In this document: positions 5,328 through 31,243 of the stretch, piece after piece
Position numbering within the stretch: position 1 is the first letter of the stretch
Layout of the letters: each line of letters starts with the position of its first letter
Assembly: GCA_018267095.1 (NCBI GenBank)
Contig: JAFDZC010000005.1
Location: forward strand, 62,001 to 126,000
Length of the DNA: 64,000 nucleotides
Direction of reading: 5' to 3'
From: Bacteroidota bacterium
Lineage (GTDB): Bacteria > Bacteroidota > Bacteroidia > Flavobacteriales > Flavobacteriaceae
Program-made: the position numbers and the translations under genes
Notes under the pieces: generated by a model
Database searches by the model: none
The model's input: only the letters and a program-made list of their open reading frames with translations
Told to the model about the DNA's origin: nothing

Positions 5328-6428
5328 ATGAGAATACTCAAATATCTTTTTTTACTGATATTGCTGGTTGCTTTTGCTGCTACAGTATACGTGGCTACCC
5401 TCAAAGCCGATTTTGAAGTACAAACCACAATGGTTCTTAAATCACCTCGGGCAACTTTATTTGATTATGTAAATGATTATCGCAATTGGGAAACCTTTGT
5501 GTCTTGGAAAAAAAACAACCCTGAAACAATTTTTTCTTACCCTAAAAACACCGTTGGCACACACGGAACTTGTCGTTGGACAGGTGATAACCAGGAAGGT
5601 AATTTAATGACAACTTCGGTAAGGAATGCTGAATTTATTTCTCAGAAAATCAATTACAACGGAGCCGAGGCAATAGGTAAAATAACTTTTGAAGATACTT
5701 TGGGCGGAACCAAAATCACCTGGAAATTAAAAGGAAAGATGAGTTTTGGCTACAAAATCTATGGTTTGCTCAGAGGTGGACCAATTCAGAATATCGAGCA
5801 AATGCAACAAGAAAGTTTAGCACAACTTGATAAAACCATAGCATACGAAATCAATACTTATAAAATAAAAGTCGACGGATTGGTCAAAAAAACCGGAACC
5901 TTTTATATCAAACAAACCATCAACAGTGAGATTGGTAAAATTCCTTACAATCTGCGGATTTTGATTCCGAGAATGGTGAATTTTTTCGCAAAAAACCACA
6001 TCAAATCAACCGGAAATCCCTTTGTTATTTATCACAGTTATGATGTGGCTCATGGCGTGAGTAAACTTTCCGTTTGCATGCCAATCGAGAAAGAAATTTT
6101 CATCAGCGAAGGCAGCGATATGTCTACCGGTTTGCTTTATCCGTTTCAAGCTGTAAAAACGACTTTAACCGGAGATTACTCGCACACTCGTGAGGCTTGG
6201 GGCAAAACCAGAGCTTATTTGTCTAAAAATCACTTGTCCGAAAATGTAGGCGGAACCCAAATTGAAGTGTACCGAAAAAATATGATGCAAATTGCCAATC
6301 CGTCCAAATGGATAACGGACATATATATTCCTGTGGGCGTATCACAACCGACTTCAGTTCCTAAACCTATCGTTGTTGAGCCAATTGTTAGTCAACCAAC
6401 ACAAAATGCTGAAACAGAAAATCCATAA
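5328..6428 (+). CDS. SRPBCC-domain membrane-anchored protein
   Basis: A 366-residue protein with an N-terminal membrane anchor (residues 5-23), then a polyketide-cyclase/START-like SRPBCC domain (about 30-170: VLKSPRATLFDYVNDYRNW, the usual binding-helix start) and a second half resembling the GyrI/effector-binding domain (about 180-335). The last 30 residues are a Pro/Val/Gln-rich tail. Flavobacteria carry this architecture widely; it probably binds a hydrophobic ligand, but none is known. It lies directly upstream of the ECF sigma factor gene with a 57-base gap and may be read through into it. Confidence 0.75.
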   Translation: MRILKYLFLLILLVAFAATVYVATLKADFEVQTTMVLKSPRATLFDYVNDYRNWETFVSWKKNNPETIFSYPKNTVGTHGTCRWTGDNQEGNLMTTSVRNAEFISQKINYNGAEAIGKITFEDTLGGTKITWKLKGKMSFGYKIYGLLRGGPIQNIEQMQQESLAQLDKTIAYEINTYKIKVDGLVKKTGTFYIKQTINSEIGKIPYNLRILIPRMVNFFAKNHIKSTGNPFVIYHSYDVAHGVSKLSVCMPIEKEIFISEGSDMSTGLLYPFQAVKTTLTGDYSHTREAWGKTRAYLSKNHLSENVGGTQIEVYRKNMMQIANPSKWITDIYIPVGVSQPTSVPKPIVVEPIVSQPTQNAETENP

Positions 6429-22790: not shown

Positions 22791-23726
22791 TTATCCATAT
22801 TGTCGACATGATGGACCCATTCCTATTCGAAGAGATTCTTTATCTGTTAATGGTCTTCCACATCTTGAACAGAAACCAGTTTCAAGACCGAAATTTAAAA
22901 CAAAAGTATCTATGTCTTTTGATATCTGAATAAAGTATTGTAAAACAGGTACGATTTGATTTTGTGTAGATACTGGCATAACATATCCTTCCCTATCGAC
23001 TTTAAACAAAATTCTTCCAGTAGACTTATTCTTAATCACAATTACATGATTATTTCGAATTTGTTTTGCTGATTGGTAATGAGCATCAAACGTCATTTGT
23101 AAATGCTCAATAATACCATTTTGATTTTTGTATGTAAATCGAACTATTGGAAATTCTATCTTGGACTTTCGCCTATCTAATTCACTAAACAGTTGATACG
23201 CATCTAAGGCCTTAAAAGGTAATTTGGGCAAGGCCATTAAATGTGTCAAAAAAGCCCCTCCATACTTTTTAAAAACGGCCATCGCATGTTGGTGAACTAT
23301 AAAGAATTGTTCACCCGTTACAGTTTTTGATTGAAAATAACGATTTGCTATTGATCGAACTGATTTATCCTCTAAACCTAAAGCAATCAAAAAGGCCTCT
23401 TCATCGTTGAATAGAGTTTTAACAACATTACCCTCGAATGATTTCAAAACTTCTTCTCTACTGTCAAATTTATTATGTTGTAATGTTAATTCAACTAATG
23501 CTTTTTCAAAGAAATGTGGTTGTTGAAAAGAATCTTCAATTTCATTTTTGGATTCCCCATGAGTTACCTCATTAGAATAAATAGCTTTGATTTTCTCAAA
23601 AAACTCAATCGGAATACGAGTGTTTATATTCAAATGCTCATCAACATACCCCACTTCATTTAATGAAGTAATCAATTGGTCAAGGCTTATATTAAGTTCT
23701 TTGGTAATATTAGAAACTCGTTTCAT
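22791..23726 (-). CDS. IF2_N-like / DUF6011-like protein at the end of the hsd operon
   Basis: A 311-residue protein encoded 14 bases downstream of hsdR and therefore probably the last gene of the restriction operon. The first 30 residues (MKRVSNITKELNISLDQLIT) resemble the small IF2_N helical domain, with its xVxxIAKELNISxxxLxxxL pattern. The last 28 residues are a zinc-ribbon-like tail, FCSRCGRPL...GPSC (Cys286, Cys289, Cys307), matching the DUF6011 pattern CxRCGRxLTDxxSxxxGxGPxC. The middle is unrecognised and helical, then strand-rich. Nucleic-acid or ribosome contact is plausible; no enzymatic motif is seen. Confidence 0.68.
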   Translation of the reverse strand: MKRVSNITKELNISLDQLITSLNEVGYVDEHLNINTRIPIEFFEKIKAIYSNEVTHGESKNEIEDSFQQPHFFEKALVELTLQHNKFDSREEVLKSFEGNVVKTLFNDEEAFLIALGLEDKSVRSIANRYFQSKTVTGEQFFIVHQHAMAVFKKYGGAFLTHLMALPKLPFKALDAYQLFSELDRRKSKIEFPIVRFTYKNQNGIIEHLQMTFDAHYQSAKQIRNNHVIVIKNKSTGRILFKVDREGYVMPVSTQNQIVPVLQYFIQISKDIDTFVLNFGLETGFCSRCGRPLTDKESLRIGMGPSCRQYG

Positions 23727-23740
23727 TTGATTTAAATTCT

Positions 23741-26065
23741 CTAAGCCACACGCTCTTTGTATAAATGCGCTTGGAATTCAATAAATAATTTGCTGATATG
23801 GGCCACGTCTCCCAAAATCTCTTTGGCATCTTCTAGTGATTGATACTTGTTGGTGAGTAAAATCGGTAGTTTCTCTTGATCGAGTTCGTCCACACCCGTT
23901 TCAATGTATTTGCTCAACACGAACGTGATAAACTCTTTTTGTTGGTCGTTGATCAAGGCAAAAATAGTCGCCTCGGCTGCTTTGGCTCTGGCTTCTCTTG
24001 TCAATGCAATATAGTTGCCATTAAAGACATATTCTAATACATCATATAGGTCGCTTTTTTCCATATCAACCAACTTTTGCAAAGCCAATAAATCATCTTT
24101 CGGGAAGCCTGCAGCATCTAAATTTTCTAATAGCGTTTTTCGGGTCATTGGATTGCTCCAAAGTTTTCGCAATTCTTCTTCGTCTCTAAAAAGTTTTGGC
24201 AACTCGCCAAATAAGTTGTTCAGAAACTCCTCTGCCGATATAGGTTTACCTTCGGCACTCCAAAACGAGGTCGAAACCATGTGTTTGATTTCTCTTTCTT
24301 TACCGTTACGCAATTTGACTTTTACTTTTGCGGCTGTCGGTGAAGGGCCACCTGGGTCATCAACGACCGGTTTTTCTGGTTTTGGCGTTGGGTAAGGCCT
24401 TGGTGTTTTGGGTTCATCTTCAATTGGTTCTCCATCCCATTCAGGGTCTGAAAAGTGTTTGTAGGCATCTACAAAGTCATAAATAGTAAAAAACTCTTTG
24501 CCGTCAAACAAACGTGTGCCTCGACCAACAATTTGTTTAAACTCTATCATTGAATTTACAGGGCGAAGCAATACAATATTCCGAATGTTCCGTGCATCAA
24601 CTCCTGTAGAGAGTTTTTGCGAAGTGGTCAGAATGGTTGGGATGGTTTTTTCATTGTCTTGAAATTCACGCAACAGTCTTTCACCTTCTTCTCCGTCATT
24701 GGCGGTAACACGAACACAATAATATGTGTCCTTGCTTTGAGCATTTTGGTTCACCAAATCTCTGATTAATGCCGCGTGCGCTTGATTAGCACAAAAAATA
24801 ATTGCTTTTTCGTTTGGGTTGGTTTCATCCAAAAAGATTTTTACCCGTTTGGCTTCGCGCTCGACAATTTCAATGGTGCGATTAAAATCTTTTTCTTCAT
24901 AAAGTTTACCTTCTTCTATTTCGCCTTCTACCACCGTATCATCTGGGGTGTAGCGATAATCATCCAAAGTCGTTTTGATCCGTTTTACTTTAAAAGGTGT
25001 TAAGAAACCGTCGTTGATTCCCTCTTTTAGCGAATAGATATAAACTGGTTCACCAAAATATTTGTAGGTATCTACATTGTCTTTTCGCTTGGGTGTGGCG
25101 GTTAAACCCAATTGCACTGCCGGGCCAAAATATTCTAAAATGCTGCGCCAATTGCTTTCGTCATTGGCTCCGCCCCGGTGGCACTCGTCAATGATGATAA
25201 AATCAAAATAGTCGGCCGGATACTCCCCGAAATAGGGTGCCGGTTTTCCTTCTGCATCCGCGCCACTCATAAAGGTTTGAAAAATGGTAAAGAAAATGCT
25301 GCCGTTGGTGGGCACTTTTCCGCTTTTCTTTATCTCATTGGGTTTGATGCGCACCAAAGCATCTTCCGGAAAAGCCGAAAAAGAGTTGTAGGCTTGGTCG
25401 GCCAAAATGTTTCGGTCGGCCAAAAATAAAATTCTTGGTCTTCGGCTGCCGTCTCGTTTTAAATTCCAACGCGTTTGAAACAGTTTCCACGCAATCTGAA
25501 AAGCAATGGCCGTTTTTCCGGTTCCTGTGGCAAGGGTCAGCAAAATTCTTTCTTTGCTTTGTGCAACGGCTTCAACGGTTCGTTGCACGGCTATTTCCTG
25601 ATAGTATCTTAACTGCCAACTTCCACTTTTGTCTTCAAACGGAACATGGGCAAATTTTTCTCTCCAATGGTTTTGATCTGAAAAGGTTTTGTTCCAAAGT
25701 TCGTCTGGGCTCAGAAAATGGTTTACCAAACCTTCTTCGCCTGATTTCATACAAATTTGGTAAATGGCTTTACCGTTGGTGCTGTAGGTGGTTTCTAGTT
25801 TTAATTTCTCAGCATACTTCTTGGCCTGCATTACCCCTTCGCCCACTTCCAATTCATCGCTTTTGGCTTCAACCACCGCCAATTTGATGCCTTTGTACAC
25901 CAACACATAATCGGCAATTTCTCGTTTGCCCCTGCCCCCGCCGGTTTGAATTTTACCTGCCGTGATGTTGTATTCACGAAGGACTTTAGAGCCTTCCACA
26001 ACGCCCCATCCACAAGCCTTAAGCTTGGGATCTATGCGTTCTGCTCTTGTTTCTGCTTCGTTCAT
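23741..26065 (-). CDS. hsdR: type I restriction endonuclease subunit R
   Basis: A 774-residue motor and nuclease subunit of an EcoEI-like type I restriction system. The N-terminal PD-(D/E)xK nuclease shows Asp52 and EAK (66-68). The superfamily 2 helicase has Walker A LATGTGKTA (178-186), DECH (293-296), GLTATPKR and the motif VI region QIVGRGTRL. The C-terminal part (about 580-774) is the EcoEI_R_C-type region that binds the modification complex. Length is short compared with EcoKI HsdR (about 1,170) but normal for the EcoEI group. It is separated from hsdS by three small genes. Confidence 0.94.
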   Translation of the reverse strand: MNEAETRAERIDPKLKACGWGVVEGSKVLREYNITAGKIQTGGGRGKREIADYVLVYKGIKLAVVEAKSDELEVGEGVMQAKKYAEKLKLETTYSTNGKAIYQICMKSGEEGLVNHFLSPDELWNKTFSDQNHWREKFAHVPFEDKSGSWQLRYYQEIAVQRTVEAVAQSKERILLTLATGTGKTAIAFQIAWKLFQTRWNLKRDGSRRPRILFLADRNILADQAYNSFSAFPEDALVRIKPNEIKKSGKVPTNGSIFFTIFQTFMSGADAEGKPAPYFGEYPADYFDFIIIDECHRGGANDESNWRSILEYFGPAVQLGLTATPKRKDNVDTYKYFGEPVYIYSLKEGINDGFLTPFKVKRIKTTLDDYRYTPDDTVVEGEIEEGKLYEEKDFNRTIEIVEREAKRVKIFLDETNPNEKAIIFCANQAHAALIRDLVNQNAQSKDTYYCVRVTANDGEEGERLLREFQDNEKTIPTILTTSQKLSTGVDARNIRNIVLLRPVNSMIEFKQIVGRGTRLFDGKEFFTIYDFVDAYKHFSDPEWDGEPIEDEPKTPRPYPTPKPEKPVVDDPGGPSPTAAKVKVKLRNGKEREIKHMVSTSFWSAEGKPISAEEFLNNLFGELPKLFRDEEELRKLWSNPMTRKTLLENLDAAGFPKDDLLALQKLVDMEKSDLYDVLEYVFNGNYIALTREARAKAAEATIFALINDQQKEFITFVLSKYIETGVDELDQEKLPILLTNKYQSLEDAKEILGDVAHISKLFIEFQAHLYKERVA

Positions 26066-26104
26066 TGTAGTAGCTCGTTAAACAAAAAAAGTAACCTCAT
26101 TAGG

Positions 26105-26563
26105 TTACCTTTTCTCTACACTGTCATTTGTTTTAATGACAACATCATTTTTTACTAATTCAGTAACATTTATTGTTGGCAATAAAAACATATTGAATGC
26201 TGTATTTTCAAGTTTAGCATGCAATACCCCCCGAAGTGTACCCATCGCTAGCACCAAAATATGTCGAGCAAAGCCTACAGGTAATTTTATTTCTTCAATA
26301 TCTGGTTGATAAAGTTTATCCCAATCTTGAGCACCTATTTCAAAAAAACAACCAATCTCTAAAATGATAAACGGACTTTTTTCCTGTAGAAAATTAACGG
26401 ATAAAAAAACAAAAACATTTCGTTTTTCCAGATTAAATCCAAAGCGCAAACCATTGGCCAATTCAATATTTTCATTGCTTCTGTCAAAAGCACTTTCAAT
26501 GATAGCAAATTGCTCAGTAGTAATACTGCGTAATCCAAAACTTATTTGGTCTCTATTTTCCAT
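26105..26563 (-). CDS. SecB-like protein of a predicted toxin-antitoxin-chaperone set
   Basis: A 152-residue protein with no signal peptide. Its order of elements recalls the SecB fold: N-terminal strands, FIILEIGCFFEIG in the middle, then a long helix starting with VGFARHILVLAMGTLRGVLH and the terminal FLLPTINVTELV, comparable to the conserved end LPPVNFDALY of SecB. Its ATG overlaps the stop of the XRE gene by one base (TAATG). In known TAC systems a SecB-like chaperone follows the antitoxin in the same way. The fold call is by eye and needs a structure-based search. Confidence 0.55.
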   Translation of the reverse strand: MENRDQISFGLRSITTEQFAIIESAFDRSNENIELANGLRFGFNLEKRNVFVFLSVNFLQEKSPFIILEIGCFFEIGAQDWDKLYQPDIEEIKLPVGFARHILVLAMGTLRGVLHAKLENTAFNMFLLPTINVTELVKNDVVIKTNDSVEKR

Positions 26564-27030
26564 TATGCTGCTAATGCGTAGTTACTGTCATCCTCTGCTA
26601 ATTGTACATTCACTGTTTTAGTGTAATCAGTCATAGCAGTGTTATAAAAAACTGGGGATTGGTCGATGTTTCCTTGCGAAATATTCTCTTTGATATATGG
26701 TTTTACCTCTTTAGGCACCTCAATCAAAGTAATGTCTAAAATACGCTGTACTTTACAGATGGTCTCAATTTGCAAGTTTTCTTGTCCTCGCAGAAGTTTA
26801 TTGACATATTGCGCAGAACATCTCATGGCTTCGGCCAATTCTACTTGCGTCTTTGGATATACATTTGCTTTTTTGTTAGCAGTCAAAGCAGATAGAATTT
26901 TAACTGCAATACTAAATGATACATCCAACCAATCTTCATTAGCTTGTCTCCATTTGGCTTTTTCAAGCCAACCTGAGTCTTTACTTGATACGTTTTTTAA
27001 AAAACTTTCAATATTTTTATTTTTTGCCAT
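26563..27030 (-). CDS. XRE-family antitoxin-like regulator
   Basis: A 155-residue DNA-binding protein. The HTH lies at about residues 58-103 (KTQVELAEAMRCSAQYVNKL then LRGQENLQIETICKVQRIL), and the upstream WLEKAKWRQANEDWLDVSF segment is characteristic of a Bacteroidota HigA-like group. The start MAKNKNIESF at 27030 was chosen; a four-residue in-frame extension exists. It begins two bases after the stop of the predicted toxin gene (TAGCTATG) and overlaps the SecB-like gene by one base. It would neutralise the toxin and repress the module, by analogy. Confidence 0.75.
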   Translation of the reverse strand: MAKNKNIESFLKNVSSKDSGWLEKAKWRQANEDWLDVSFSIAVKILSALTANKKANVYPKTQVELAEAMRCSAQYVNKLLRGQENLQIETICKVQRILDITLIEVPKEVKPYIKENISQGNIDQSPVFYNTAMTDYTKTVNVQLAEDDSNYALAA

Positions 27031-27032
27031 AG

Positions 27033-27560
27033 CTAGAAACAAATTTCAAAAAAGGTGTCAACATCGTAAACTCCTATGGTTTTTAGATAATCTCTACATT
27101 GATTTATTCGAGTACGTTCTTCTTCTCCGTGGGGTCTGTCTTCCATATTTAGGGTCAGTTTTATCATTCCACCGGTAATAACATACAGATCTTCTTTTTC
27201 TTCTTGAGAAATTTTTAAGGCATAAAGTCTCAGCCAATTTTGTTTGGCTTTTTGTCTGGGTAATTCAGTTGCTTTATATTCATTATTGTATAAATTGGTA
27301 AAGAACTCGTTTAGTTGGTGAGGTGTAGCCTCGGTTAAAGCTACCATCCTATTTCTAAATCTTTTTACTTCCTTTCTTGTTATTTCAACTGCCTCTTGTA
27401 TAGTATGTTCGCTTTTTAAGTCAGCTTCATTCTCTGTAAAAAAATTAAAAAGAAATAATGGATCTTCCCATTCATCCAATACATGTTCTAATGCATCAGG
27501 ACCATCCGGTAGATGTTGAAAGGCATATAAATTTTGAACAAATGTACGAACTATTACCAT
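27033..27560 (-). CDS. predicted toxin of the XRE/SecB-like module
   Basis: A 175-residue protein starting MVIVRTFVQNLYAFQHLPDG. An acidic helical N-terminal half (Glu/Asp-rich, FNFFTENEADLKSEHTIQEA) is followed by WLRLYALKIS...YVITGGMIKLTLNM, a strand pattern seen next to XRE genes in other Bacteroidota, and suggestive of a RelE/HigB-like RNase core. No catalytic residue can be assigned with certainty. It begins 35 bases after the hsdS stop and is coupled to the XRE gene. An alternative is a restriction-related accessory protein. Confidence 0.5.
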   Translation of the reverse strand: MVIVRTFVQNLYAFQHLPDGPDALEHVLDEWEDPLFLFNFFTENEADLKSEHTIQEAVEITRKEVKRFRNRMVALTEATPHQLNEFFTNLYNNEYKATELPRQKAKQNWLRLYALKISQEEKEDLYVITGGMIKLTLNMEDRPHGEEERTRINQCRDYLKTIGVYDVDTFFEICF

Positions 27561-27595
27561 AAAATCAACCCACAGGTTTATTTTTTTGTGTTTTG

Positions 27596-28786
27596 TTAAC
27601 TAACAGCTTCCTTTAGCAACTTCTTATCTGCCAACTCCCCCGCAAACGCCTTCTGCAAAATACTTTTTTTCAACTCCTCCAAATCAGCAATTTTCTTTTG
27701 ATATACCGCTTCCAACTTTTGGGTTTCAGCGCGCAAAGCATCCAATTGACGGACGATGGTTTGTTGTTCTTTGAGAGGTGGAACTGGAACAATCCGATTT
27801 TCCATCGAACCTTTTGAAACGTGTATCATTGTTGTTCCCGTTCCTTGTGCAGCCTTGATTTTTTCTTTATCCCATTCAAAAAGCGTGAAAAGAAAATCTC
27901 TTGTAACTAAATTTTCATCAGGAATTACTTTCCAAATATGATAGTGATAGATAACCTTCTCTTCTTTCCAAATTCTTGGACCAAATGAGGCTGACCATGC
28001 ATATAGTAAATCTTCCTTATCACAATACTTGTCTTCATCCAGCTCTAAATCTGAATAATACCAATGGTCGCTTGTGAAAAAGTTGCCAACACGTAAAACA
28101 CGGTATTTACCTTTATCAAGTAGCTCATCCTTCTTGTATGCTCTACCATTAATCAGTTTACATATTTCATCAATTCTTTTCTCTTCCCAACCCTCACCCT
28201 TTTTCTCAAACACCCCCTGCAAATAGCTTTCAAAAAGTTCACGAGCATTTTTGAGGTTTTGTTCGGCATTGGCTTTTGCCTTAGCTATGGCGGCAAAGGC
28301 TACATCTAATAGGGAAACTATGCGTTGTTGTTCGGGGAGAGATTTGGGATAAGAAAATATTACTTGCTTAACCGCTGCACCATTAAAATGAGGTTGGGCT
28401 GCACCTGATGCTAAACTATTTGCTTGGTCCCAATACGATTTTGTTTTTGAAAAATACCAATAGAGTTTATTATCAATTTTTTCTTTGAATTTAATTCTGA
28501 TAAGGTATGAGGCAAATACAGAAGGTTCAACATCTTCGTAAAGGAGAACTTTTGCAAATGTTGCTCCTGTTCTTGCCATTAGTAAATCATTGTTTTGTAG
28601 TAAAAAAGATGCCGCTTCTTTTGAATGTTTGAGATATTTCTTTTCAGTCGAAATTAATTCACCATTATCATCAATATCTGTTATTCTAACGTATCTATAA
28701 TCTCCTACTTCAGTTGACTTATCGGTAAACCCATATTCAACATCAGCAATTTCACCAAGAGATTTTATTTCCCAACCTTGTTTCAT
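27596..28786 (-). CDS. hsdS: type I restriction-modification specificity subunit S
   Basis: A 396-residue DNA recognition subunit with two target-recognition domains (about 1-150 and 200-345). The conserved helical spacers are visible: SLPEQQRIVSLLDVAFAAIA (about 155-175) and PPLKEQQTIVRQLDALRAET (about 340-360), followed by a C-terminal coiled coil (LEAVYQKKIADLEELKKSIL). The start ATG overlaps the hsdM stop in ATGA. Two complete TRDs with different sequences imply a bipartite, asymmetric recognition sequence that cannot be read from the protein. Confidence 0.93.
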   Translation of the reverse strand: MKQGWEIKSLGEIADVEYGFTDKSTEVGDYRYVRITDIDDNGELISTEKKYLKHSKEAASFLLQNNDLLMARTGATFAKVLLYEDVEPSVFASYLIRIKFKEKIDNKLYWYFSKTKSYWDQANSLASGAAQPHFNGAAVKQVIFSYPKSLPEQQRIVSLLDVAFAAIAKAKANAEQNLKNARELFESYLQGVFEKKGEGWEEKRIDEICKLINGRAYKKDELLDKGKYRVLRVGNFFTSDHWYYSDLELDEDKYCDKEDLLYAWSASFGPRIWKEEKVIYHYHIWKVIPDENLVTRDFLFTLFEWDKEKIKAAQGTGTTMIHVSKGSMENRIVPVPPLKEQQTIVRQLDALRAETQKLEAVYQKKIADLEELKKSILQKAFAGELADKKLLKEAVS

Positions 28787-30234
28787 ATCAGTTCCAAAAT
28801 TGAGTTAAGGATTTCCGCACTTTCTTCGTCCAATGCTTTCATTTCTTCCAAAATGGCTCGGGGTGGGCGTAGCGTTACTTCTTCTTTTTTATTCGGGTTC
28901 TTTACGCTCAAATCGAACGTGCTTTGGTCAATGTCTTTTACATTTACCGTCCAGGAGTTTTCGCTATCAGCAAGAGTTTTTTGCAGTTCAATAAATTCTG
29001 CCAGGTCGTTTTCGTTGAGTGGGTTGGTCTTGCCCAAATTGCGGGTGAGGTTCAACTGGTAGTACCACACGTTTTGGGTAGGTTTGCCTTTTTCAAAAAA
29101 CAACACAACGGTTTTTACCCCTGCACCGGTAAATGTGCCACCGGGTAAATCCAACACGGTATGCAGGTTGCAGTTTTCCAACAAGGTTTTGCGTATGGCC
29201 ACCGTTGCATTGTCGGTATTGCTCAAAAAGGTGTTTTTTATGACCACCCCTGCTTTGCCGCCTGCTTTGAGTATTTTAATAAAGTGCTGTAAAAAGAGCG
29301 AAGCGGTTTCGCCTGTTTTAATCGGGAAGTTTTGTTGCACTTCGGCACGTTCCTTTCCCCCAAAAGGCGGATTGGCCAGCACCACCTCATAACGATCTTT
29401 TTCTTGTATGTCGGCCAGGTTTTCGGCCAGCGTGTTGGTGTGTATGATGTTGGGCGCTTCTACGCCGTGCAAAATCATATTCATCACCCCCAAGATATAC
29501 GCCAATGATTTTTTCTCTTTGCCGTAAAACGTGCTTTTTTGAAGCGTTTCCCAATCTTTGGTCGAAAGCCCGGGCTTATTTAAGTAAGCAAAAGCTTCGC
29601 ACAAAAAGCCCGCACTGCCCACAGCACCATCGTATATTTTATCACCTATCTTGGGAGCCACCACTTTGACGATGGTCGTAATCAGCGGACGCGGGGTATA
29701 ATACTCTCCTCCGTTGCGCCCTGCGTTGCCCATATTTTTGATTTTGTCTTCATATAGGTGGCTCATTTCATGCTTTTCGGCATGGGTACGGAAACGCAAT
29801 TGATCAATCAGGTTAATTACCTCGCGTAAATTATAACCACTTTGGATGCGGTTTTTCAGTTCGCTGAAGATTTCACCAATCTTGTATTCAATCGTATTGG
29901 CACTCGCGGCGCTTTGCTTGAATTTTTTGAGGTAGTTAAAGAGTTGTCCATTTACAAAATCAGCGAGGTCATCACCTGTCAAAGCATTGTGATGGTCTAG
30001 TTTTCCGTCTTTGTCTTTGGGTGCGGCCCAAGTCGCCCATCGGAAAGCTTGGTCAATAATTGGCGTGTAGGTCTTACCGGTTAATTCGGCTGCGGTGGCA
30101 CGGTCTTTTTCTAAATCATCCAAATACTTGAGAAACAAAATCCAAGAGGTTTGTTCTACATAGTCTAGTTCACTGCCGCAACCCGCATCTTTATGAAGGA
30201 TATCGTCAATATTTTTGAAAGTTTGTTCAAACAT
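28783..30234 (-). CDS. hsdM: type I restriction-modification DNA methyltransferase subunit M
   Basis: A 483-residue N6-adenine methyltransferase. The HsdM N-terminal domain is at about 5-130; GEYYTPRPL (176-184) and motif IV NPPF (288-291) are clear. Motif I reads DGAVGSAGF (202-210) where many HsdM proteins have DPxxGSGGF, a variation that still keeps the two glycines. With HsdS it protects the host DNA and directs HsdR. It heads the operon; a minus-strand TAACTTTA at 30264-30257, close to the Bacteroidota -7 box, precedes it by about 24 bases. Confidence 0.94.
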   Translation of the reverse strand: MFEQTFKNIDDILHKDAGCGSELDYVEQTSWILFLKYLDDLEKDRATAAELTGKTYTPIIDQAFRWATWAAPKDKDGKLDHHNALTGDDLADFVNGQLFNYLKKFKQSAASANTIEYKIGEIFSELKNRIQSGYNLREVINLIDQLRFRTHAEKHEMSHLYEDKIKNMGNAGRNGGEYYTPRPLITTIVKVVAPKIGDKIYDGAVGSAGFLCEAFAYLNKPGLSTKDWETLQKSTFYGKEKKSLAYILGVMNMILHGVEAPNIIHTNTLAENLADIQEKDRYEVVLANPPFGGKERAEVQQNFPIKTGETASLFLQHFIKILKAGGKAGVVIKNTFLSNTDNATVAIRKTLLENCNLHTVLDLPGGTFTGAGVKTVVLFFEKGKPTQNVWYYQLNLTRNLGKTNPLNENDLAEFIELQKTLADSENSWTVNVKDIDQSTFDLSVKNPNKKEEVTLRPPRAILEEMKALDEESAEILNSILELI

Positions 30235-30580: not shown

Positions 30581-30670
30581 GTGGCAAAACCCTTCCAAAA
30601 ACAGATTTTGCCACAAAAGTTGTGGCAAAATATTAGTTTCGAGCACTTTTGCCACAAAAACTATGGCAAA
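30581..30670. promoter_or_regulatory. array of GTGGCAAAA inverted repeats, likely operators of the XRE gene
   Basis: TTTTGCCACAA (30606-30616) and TTGTGGCAAAA (30620-30630) form a perfect 11-base dyad. A second dyad, TTTGCCACA and TATGGCAAA (30648-30670), has one mismatch, and a half-site GTGGCAAAA is at 30581-30589. The dyad centres are about 41 bases apart, near four helical turns. The array precedes the HTH gene at 30710, suggesting autoregulation. Confidence 0.6.
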
Positions 30671-30709
30671 GTATTTGTTTTGAGCGCTTTATCACAAAAC
30701 ATCTGCGCC

Positions 30710-31243
30710 ATGAAACGAGAAAACGAACTCCGAAAACTTTTGGGCATCAGCCAAATTGAAATGGCCATGCTTTTGCAAATCAGCCGCAGTCAGTGGTCGA
30801 TGTTTGAAATCGGGCAGCGCGATTTGCCCTTGGCCGCCAAACAATTGTTGGCTGAACTCTTGCAGTATTTGCAAACCACCGAGGCCCAGGCCAAAGCGCC
30901 CAACCCAAAAACCCAAACGGCTTTACAAAAAGAACTCGAGGCTCAGTTGCGCGAAAATGAATACCAACGGCTGCTCATAGCCCAAAGAACAGCCTTTTAC
31001 GAAAAGAAATACCACCAAGAGCTGCGGGCTTGGCAACTGAGCGAGTTTTTAAAAACCCGCAAACACCATAAAAAATTCAAACAAATTCCGCATCTGATCA
31101 CGATGACGCAAAAAACAGTGCCCCCGCCCCCGCCCGAAAACCTCATCTTATGGCAACATCACCAACACAAACAAGAACTGCTTGAACTTGAGCGGTTGTT
31201 GCTCGAAAGCCAATACCGCAAGGTGAATAGAGCAATAAATTGA
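30710..31243 (+). CDS. XRE-family HTH protein with long helical tail
   Basis: A 177-residue protein. The N-terminal HTH (about residues 6-45, LRKLLGISQIEMAMLLQISR then SQWSMFEIGQRDLP) is a standard XRE fold; the rest is charged and helical (KELEAQLRENEYQRLLIAQ) with a short Pro run (PPPPPEN) at about 145. The ATG at 30710 begins MKRENELRKLLG; a GTG-initiated extension of 43 codons runs over the inverted-repeat array and is rejected. It is divergent from hsdM, so it could regulate the restriction operon as well as itself. Sequence in the tail is GC-richer than the AT-rich hsdS region. Confidence 0.72.
   Translation: MKRENELRKLLGISQIEMAMLLQISRSQWSMFEIGQRDLPLAAKQLLAELLQYLQTTEAQAKAPNPKTQTALQKELEAQLRENEYQRLLIAQRTAFYEKKYHQELRAWQLSEFLKTRKHHKKFKQIPHLITMTQKTVPPPPPENLILWQHHQHKQELLELERLLLESQYRKVNRAIN

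Follow-up and report, generated by a model that had tools for sequence, protein, structure and literature searches.

Why should a type I restriction-modification (RM) operon carry, between its specificity and restriction genes, three genes that look like a toxin, an antitoxin and a chaperone? The question is raised by a gene cluster at 22791-30234 of a 64,000-nucleotide stretch of DNA (the window; G000:C15:62001-126000) from a 3.13-Mb genome. An earlier reading of the letters alone (the sequence-only reading) had described seven open reading frames (ORFs) there, and we found all seven intact on the minus strand at the coordinates given, with the same junctions: an ATGA overlap of hsdM and hsdS at 28783-28786, 35 bases from hsdS to a 175-aa gene, 2 bases from there to an XRE gene (ATG at 27030), a one-base overlap of the XRE gene and a SecB-like gene, and then gaps of 39 bases before hsdR and of 14 before the last gene. 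With a probability of about 0.6, we read the locus as a type I operon that acquired a whole toxin-antitoxin-chaperone (TAC) cassette in its hsdS-hsdR slot, which would make it a layered defence. Our analysis suggests that the trio is most likely a phage-protein sensor with a translation-stopping output.

The host operon was identified from its protein sequences. hsdM (28783-30234; 483 aa) encodes a type I N6-adenine methyltransferase (PF02384, 6.7e-62; PADLOC MTase_I, 3.6e-162), hsdS (27596-28786; 396 aa) a specificity subunit matched by PF01420 in two stretches (3.5e-49), and hsdR (23741-26065; 774 aa) a restriction subunit of the EcoAI/FtnUII family (NF046051, 4.9e-241; 802 bits against a cut-off of 550). 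HsdM, HsdS and HsdR are thus firmly assigned by sequence to an intact EcoAI-like type I RM system. The toxin, antitoxin and SecB-like genes between hsdS and hsdR are adjacent on one strand, as TAC systems require, and this cassette has a G+C content of 0.32-0.35, compared to 0.444 for hsdM and 0.425 for hsdR.

The toxin gene (27033-27560) encodes 175 aa with a predicted HigB/RelE-like fold (pLDDT 92). Structural matches, obtained by re-alignment of the 1000 chains ranked highest by Foldseek, include the M. tuberculosis TAC toxin. The matches listed are RelE/HigB-like, although a fold such as the ADP-ribosyltransferase of CmdTAC may lie outside this list. The model therefore gives the toxin a known TAC toxin fold, of the HigB/RelE type. 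Its basic and glycine residues are strictly conserved. The antitoxin gene (26563-27030; 155 aa from the ATG at 27030) encodes an XRE helix-turn-helix (HTH) domain (PF01381, 2.7e-6) and a C-terminal extension. The third gene (26105-26563; 152 aa) encodes the SecB-like protein. Its family aligned with a four-member SecB alignment over 124 columns in hhalign (probability 74.5%, P 2.7e-5), while single SecB sequences gave no signal by the same method; it was not matched by PF02556, and the genome as a whole had no PF02556 match at E values up to 1. By profile, the chaperone appears to be a distant SecB relative. A separate Bacteroidota TAC with a PF02556 chaperone was seen elsewhere (L198:1471-2651), and its 105-aa toxin, which lies below every Pfam cut-off, is apparently a short relative of the window toxin.

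The XRE and SecB-like proteins both matched PDC-M64 models of PADLOC-DB 2.0.0, each through the PDC-M64C model (1.2e-9 and 1.6e-12, respectively). The window toxin itself matched no PADLOC model; when PADLOC was run on 52 members of the toxin family, a PDC-M64B model was matched by 43 and a PDC-M64A model by 27. Judged by these model matches, the trio belongs to the same family as PDC-M64, which PADLOC holds as a phage-defence candidate without a description and to which our analysis adds the TAC identity, the fold and the antitoxin tail. PDC entries are putative candidates derived from guilt-by-embedding and are mostly unvalidated (PMC10855318, PMC12988326); PDC-M64 is not named in the accessible parts of these two papers, and no paper naming it was found in the literature searched, the scope of which excluded preprints and most subscription journals.

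To compare the module across genomes we surveyed 98 loci, made up of 19 and 80 loci with toxin relatives, less two copies (L073 and L092, which duplicate L022 and L024; the near-copies L112/L113 and L109/L111 were kept), plus the window. The 80 loci are the best 80 of at least 570 by likeness to the window toxin and not a random sample. The survey held 52 trios and 33 chaperone-less toxin-antitoxin pairs, while nine loci at contig ends and four without a called antitoxin or chaperone were excluded from the comparison of trios with pairs. The stretch following the HTH domain of the antitoxin was much longer in trios (median 70 aa, 50 measured) than in pairs (31 aa, 24 measured; Mann-Whitney p 1e-9). 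The window antitoxin has an extension of 65 residues (26566-26760), which we read, from this comparison with chaperone-less relatives, as a chaperone-addiction region that would bind the chaperone. The antitoxin ends in SNYALAA, and the transfer-messenger RNA (tmRNA) of the same genome, found by ARAGORN, encodes the tag GEGNYALAA; the ssrA-like end NYALAA lies at 26566-26583. A score of at least 8 against NYALAA was reached by 19 of 51 trio antitoxins, by none of 33 pair antitoxins and by 9 of 1021 background ORFs. Pair antitoxins too lean slightly towards the tag compared to background (p 0.0013), and trios differed from pairs (p 0.0004). The antitoxins of L031 and L035 end in DYNYREAA and DYNYRNAA, and the tmRNA tag of those genomes (L124, L123) is DNNYSYRLAA, so that the end of the antitoxin may vary with the tag of its host. 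Because of the predicted toxin fold, the long antitoxin extension and the ssrA-like end, the trio reads as a TAC module, and the TAC-like character proposed from the letters alone is supported, the chaperone being SecB-related by profile.

We then asked how the module is distributed relative to restriction genes. A restriction gene stood in the same-strand cluster of 22 of 52 trios and 3 of 33 pairs (Fisher 0.0012), as called with local profiles that were seeded partly from module-adjacent genes, which favours detection there. PADLOC confirmed the Mod and Res of L058, the Mod of L025 and the IIG enzyme of L044, the other restriction labels being local. The density of restriction genes was highest next to the trios, at 2.71 per 10 kb within 0-1 kb, 1.02 at 1-2 kb, 0.55 at 2-3 kb and 0.23 at 3-4 kb, and stood at 0.61, 0.45 and 0.07 at 4-6, 6-8 and 8-10 kb, respectively. 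In a sample of 296 genomes of the phylum, the toxin was found in 20, and in 6 of these 20 a PF02384 gene lay within 5 kb of it, against 0.52 expected (P 5e-6) under random scatter; because defence genes do not scatter in this way, some of the enrichment may reflect the general clustering of such genes in defence islands. The 80-locus set overlaps the 296-genome sample, so the two tests are not independent, and since defence genes cluster anyway the enrichment overstates the specificity for restriction. The trio is nevertheless found beside restriction genes in many genomes, beyond chance, and both tests support its bias towards restriction operons. The sequence-only reading had held that a trio found as often outside such operons, with no bias, would weaken the functional link; here the outcome was mixed, in that a bias is present but 30 of 52 trios lie elsewhere.

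The associated operons are of several kinds. The order hsdM-hsdS-[TAC]-hsdR was seen in the window, L038, L056 and L086, in L063 with one extra gene and in L095 with a cut hsdS; hsdR-[TAC] in L046 and L051; and hsdR-[TAC]-hsdM-hsdS in L072. The module also follows a large IIG-like methyltransferase (L022, L024, L107) and lies between type III Mod and Res genes (L058, L076, L088). Two loci hold further genes. The hsd operon of L051 has two guests: an HTH_17 and PIN_3 pair (5389-6187) lies between hsdS and hsdR, and the TAC, from about 10001, follows hsdR. In L025 (573-3200) an 876-aa protein with a ThsB-like TIR end is encoded 3' of the TAC and a type III methyltransferase on the same strand.

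How did the cassette come to lie in this operon? The seven genes do not form a conserved unit: the last gene of the operon, a DUF6011 gene, is nearly unique among 395 genomes of the phylum, and none of 20 regions around relatives of the window HsdR matched the toxin, antitoxin or chaperone. In 18 of these relatives hsdS and hsdR were both visible (the contig ends before hsdS in L178 and L179), and in none did the slot hold the trio. Among the slots scanned, it held Y1_Tnp transposases (L173, L174), an M78 peptidase (L182), an Xre/RES pair (L187), a DUF5131 pair (L188) or an AlbA/Schlafen protein (L191), or was nearly empty (23 bases in L189, 4 bases in L190). DNA similarity to L173 and L174, the nearest relatives of this operon (HsdR 85% and 80% identical), stops inside hsdS at 27632 and 27631 and resumes at the hsdR start codon in L173 and four bases before it in L174. 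Given these sharp edges, the varied occupants in relatives and the A+T-rich cassette, the trio occupies a variable guest slot in a lineage-specific manner. On a toxin tree of 96 rows with context labels set by hand, restriction context changed at least 16 times by parsimony, with 8 changes forced by starred branches, and the hsdS-hsdR slot alone accounted for 6 changes, at least 4 of them forced; gain cannot be told from loss in these counts. The window toxin groups with L041-L045 on a starred branch (99); none of these lies in an hsdS-hsdR slot, and L044 follows a IIG-like enzyme. This kind of module has entered or left restriction operons repeatedly.

In the layered defence that we favour, HsdMSR would form the first layer by cutting unmodified phage DNA. 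The cassette toxin would be a HigB-like ribosome-dependent mRNase, and the XRE antitoxin would stay folded only with the help of the SecB-like chaperone. In CmdTAC, a phage capsid protein takes the chaperone, whereupon the antitoxin is degraded by ClpP and the toxin freed (PMC11618068), and HigBAC is triggered by a phage lambda tail protein (Mets et al. 2024 as cited in PMC11980606). By analogy, the structural proteins made by a phage that escapes restriction would occupy the chaperone; the antitoxin, once freed and with an end resembling the ssrA tag of its own cell, would be degraded by ClpXP, and the released toxin would halt translation, so that the infection is aborted or time is gained for the restriction enzyme to clear the DNA. 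A precedent for such cooperation is given by MqsRAC and McrBC, where dormancy likely buys restriction the time to clear phage DNA (PMC10783111). We infer the protein activities, the phage trigger and the cooperation with HsdR alike.

Several observations weigh against this reading, besides the share of the enrichment that defence-island clustering may explain. When descent was controlled for, trios and pairs differed in the same direction but not significantly (8 starred independent pairs, median p 0.25), in a test that used hand-set tree labels differing slightly from the automatic rule (L030 and L115, for example, were counted, L045 and L061 not). The 30 of 52 trios outside any detected restriction cluster indicate that the module needs no restriction operon, and 3 of the 22 associations are loose, with two to six other genes intervening (L045, L084, L100). 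Other trios adjoin a PtuA-like ATPase (L064), a JukA-like protein (L045), large genes without a PADLOC match (L120, L075) or genes with metabolic domains (L087). The module lies upstream of hsdR in only 1 of 30 loci of the window's HsdR family, the window's own, and in 2 of 30 of another family, in counts that read 1.5 kb upstream of hsdR and include some loci cut by contig ends. Sequence searches of the PDB yielded no relative of the toxin and none of the chaperone. Finally, the claim that nothing like an internal terminator lies within the operon did not hold, as a strong terminator-like hairpin (26084-26115; AAAAGGTAACCT-AATG-AGGTTACTTTTTTT) separates the SecB-like gene, whose stop codon it includes, from hsdR. 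It folds at -14.9 kcal/mol (z -4.53; none of 200 shuffles as low) and, with an A-tract and a U-tract, has the form of a bidirectional terminator, the terminator scan listing it on the plus strand only. The hairpin argues against simple co-transcription of the trio with hsdR, and co-expression of the two is therefore not to be assumed. Hairpins 3' of the chaperone gene were also present in L063 (z -4.7), L038 (z -3.1) and L056 (z -2.7), while in L058, L076, L086, L088 and L095 only 3-23 bases separate the chaperone gene from the nuclease gene, not enough to hold a hairpin of this kind.

These points bear on other explanations of the locus. The sequence-only reading had suggested protection of the operon from loss, or a signal of expression altered by phage or stress, as roles that the module may have. 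The gap between hsdS and hsdR could be a tolerated landing site where defence and mobile modules collect. The TAC would then act alone, whether against phages or to maintain itself, and its sole benefit would be to travel with a mobile operon. The absence of the trio from all 18 visible slots of relatives, which hold varied other occupants or almost nothing, fits a passive guest of this kind, as do the sharp edges, low G+C content and own terminator-like hairpin of the cassette, and the hsdS-hsdR site has been termed a potential recombination hotspot (PMC12255303). However, the module also occurs in IIG-like and type III operons, and both before and after hsdR, so that one slot cannot explain the bias, and trios are found there more often than chaperone-less pairs, though not significantly after control for descent. 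We regard a passive guest as a possible but doubtful explanation. It is rather improbable, in our view, that the trio is wired to the RM system as a guard, with the chaperone or the extended antitoxin sensing what state HsdMSR is in (captured by a phage anti-restriction protein, for instance) and the mRNase being freed when restriction is disabled. If this were so, the type I, IIG-like and type III systems of Bacteroidota would have recruited chaperone-addicted modules as a general second stage on several independent occasions.

Two further proposals deserve little credence. One is addiction, in which cells that lose the operon are punished by the TAC, to the benefit of the stability of the restriction locus or its carrier element. 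A labile antitoxin is enough for any module to play this role, the end of the window antitoxin is degron-like, and the RM genes appear to be horizontally mobile because HsdR proteins 88% and 83% identical occur in genomes of other families; against this, phage collections contain hardly any copies of the toxin (1 of 50,697 records; four loci confirmed in IMG/VR), and addiction alone would require no chaperone. Equally hard to credit is an expression timer, in which the XRE antitoxin and the terminator would delay hsdR in a new host until methylation is complete, the toxin being incidental. The XRE domain could bind DNA, and the strong hairpin before hsdR would suit such a role together with those of L063, L038 and L056, but the five short gaps leave no room for one, and strict conservation of the toxin's basic and glycine residues speaks against an incidental toxin.

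The layered defence proposed here can be set beside known systems. Although the arrangement was not recognised in the sequence-only reading, the trio is already in PADLOC as PDC-M64, and DarTG2 has been published in the same hsdS-hsdR slot (PMC12255303). Like HigBA-SecB of M. tuberculosis, HigBAC of E. coli, MqsRAC and CmdTAC, the cassette has the order toxin, antitoxin, SecB-like chaperone and a C-terminal antitoxin extension; TAC modules share a HigB-like fold with the window toxin, as predicted, and an LAA-type end like that of the window antitoxin is reported for CmdA and other TAC antitoxins (PMC11618068). Unlike in known TACs, the window toxin and chaperone are beyond the reach of Pfam and PDB sequence searches, and placement inside an RM operon, as in the window, goes unmentioned for known TACs in the accessible parts of the TAC papers. 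DarTG2, in the RRDM island of E. coli, is a toxin-antitoxin system in the same type I slot, and the island is active against phages; it differs in its toxin, an ADP-ribosyltransferase acting on DNA, and in an upstream repressor, RptR, and a chaperone is not mentioned in the available text (PMC12255303). PrrC is a guest RNase toxin encoded with hsdMSR (EcoprrI) as a second line of defence (PMC3710099). It is held inactive by the RM enzyme, whereas the window cassette encodes its own antitoxin and chaperone and its family often occurs without detected RM genes. MqsRAC is a TAC that cooperates with restriction against phage T2 (PMC10783111), but it is plasmid-borne, has an MqsR-type toxin and acts with the chromosomal McrBC.

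Guest toxins in hsd operons (PrrC, DarTG2), TACs and the catalogued family are thus known already, and no TAC inside an RM operon was found in the literature searched. As far as these searches show, it is new that PDC-M64 is identified as a TAC whose toxin is HigB-like, that antitoxin tail and chaperone are tied to each other inside a single toxin family and that the module spreads across three RM types; the slot analysis is new as well. Embedded defences are reportedly the subject of Payne et al. 2024 (bioRxiv). An undescribed PADLOC candidate is given a concrete, if predicted, identity: a TAC in which the toxin is HigB-like and the antitoxin ends in the manner of an ssrA tag. In operons of type I, IIG-like and type III alike, chaperone-addicted toxins adjoin modification or restriction genes above the random-scatter expectation. 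If the trio works together with the nuclease in cis, in the way that MqsRAC does with McrBC in trans, DNA-cutting and translation-stopping layers would be combined in one operon, and a TAC inside a type I operon would place both in one transferable unit. The variable hsdS-hsdR slot also offers a testable site at which more second-line modules may be sought.

The last gene of the operon (22791-23726; 311 aa; PF19474, 4.2e-12) was considered as a functional member and rejected, since no conserved association was found. The DUF6011 protein was present in 2 of 395 genomes of the phylum, its own and one with a weak match (7.5e-4, G116), and among 148 genomes in its own only. A tblastn search at E 0.01 found nothing outside the window's own stretches in the loci fetched for the survey and the HsdR comparison, plasmids gave one match covering 24%, and none was confirmed in viral contigs. 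Being near-unique in the phylum sample, the gene is a downstream passenger outside the system explained here. At its start the protein resembles IF2_N very weakly (E 0.18), and its C-terminal end is cysteine-rich, zinc-ribbon-like and common to several PHROG families of unknown function.

The Bacteroidota-type promoter consensus is TTTG-N17-22-TAnnTTTG; it had three matches in the window against 4.5 expected, none of them in the operon, and sigma-70-like sites were not above shuffles (18 against 21.0). Repeats at the cassette edges were limited to short or weak matches in the part of the matches listed. Divergent from hsdM, an XRE-like ORF lies on the plus strand (30581-31243; 220 aa from a GTG); its first 45 residues are repetitive by eye, and its true start is possibly further in.

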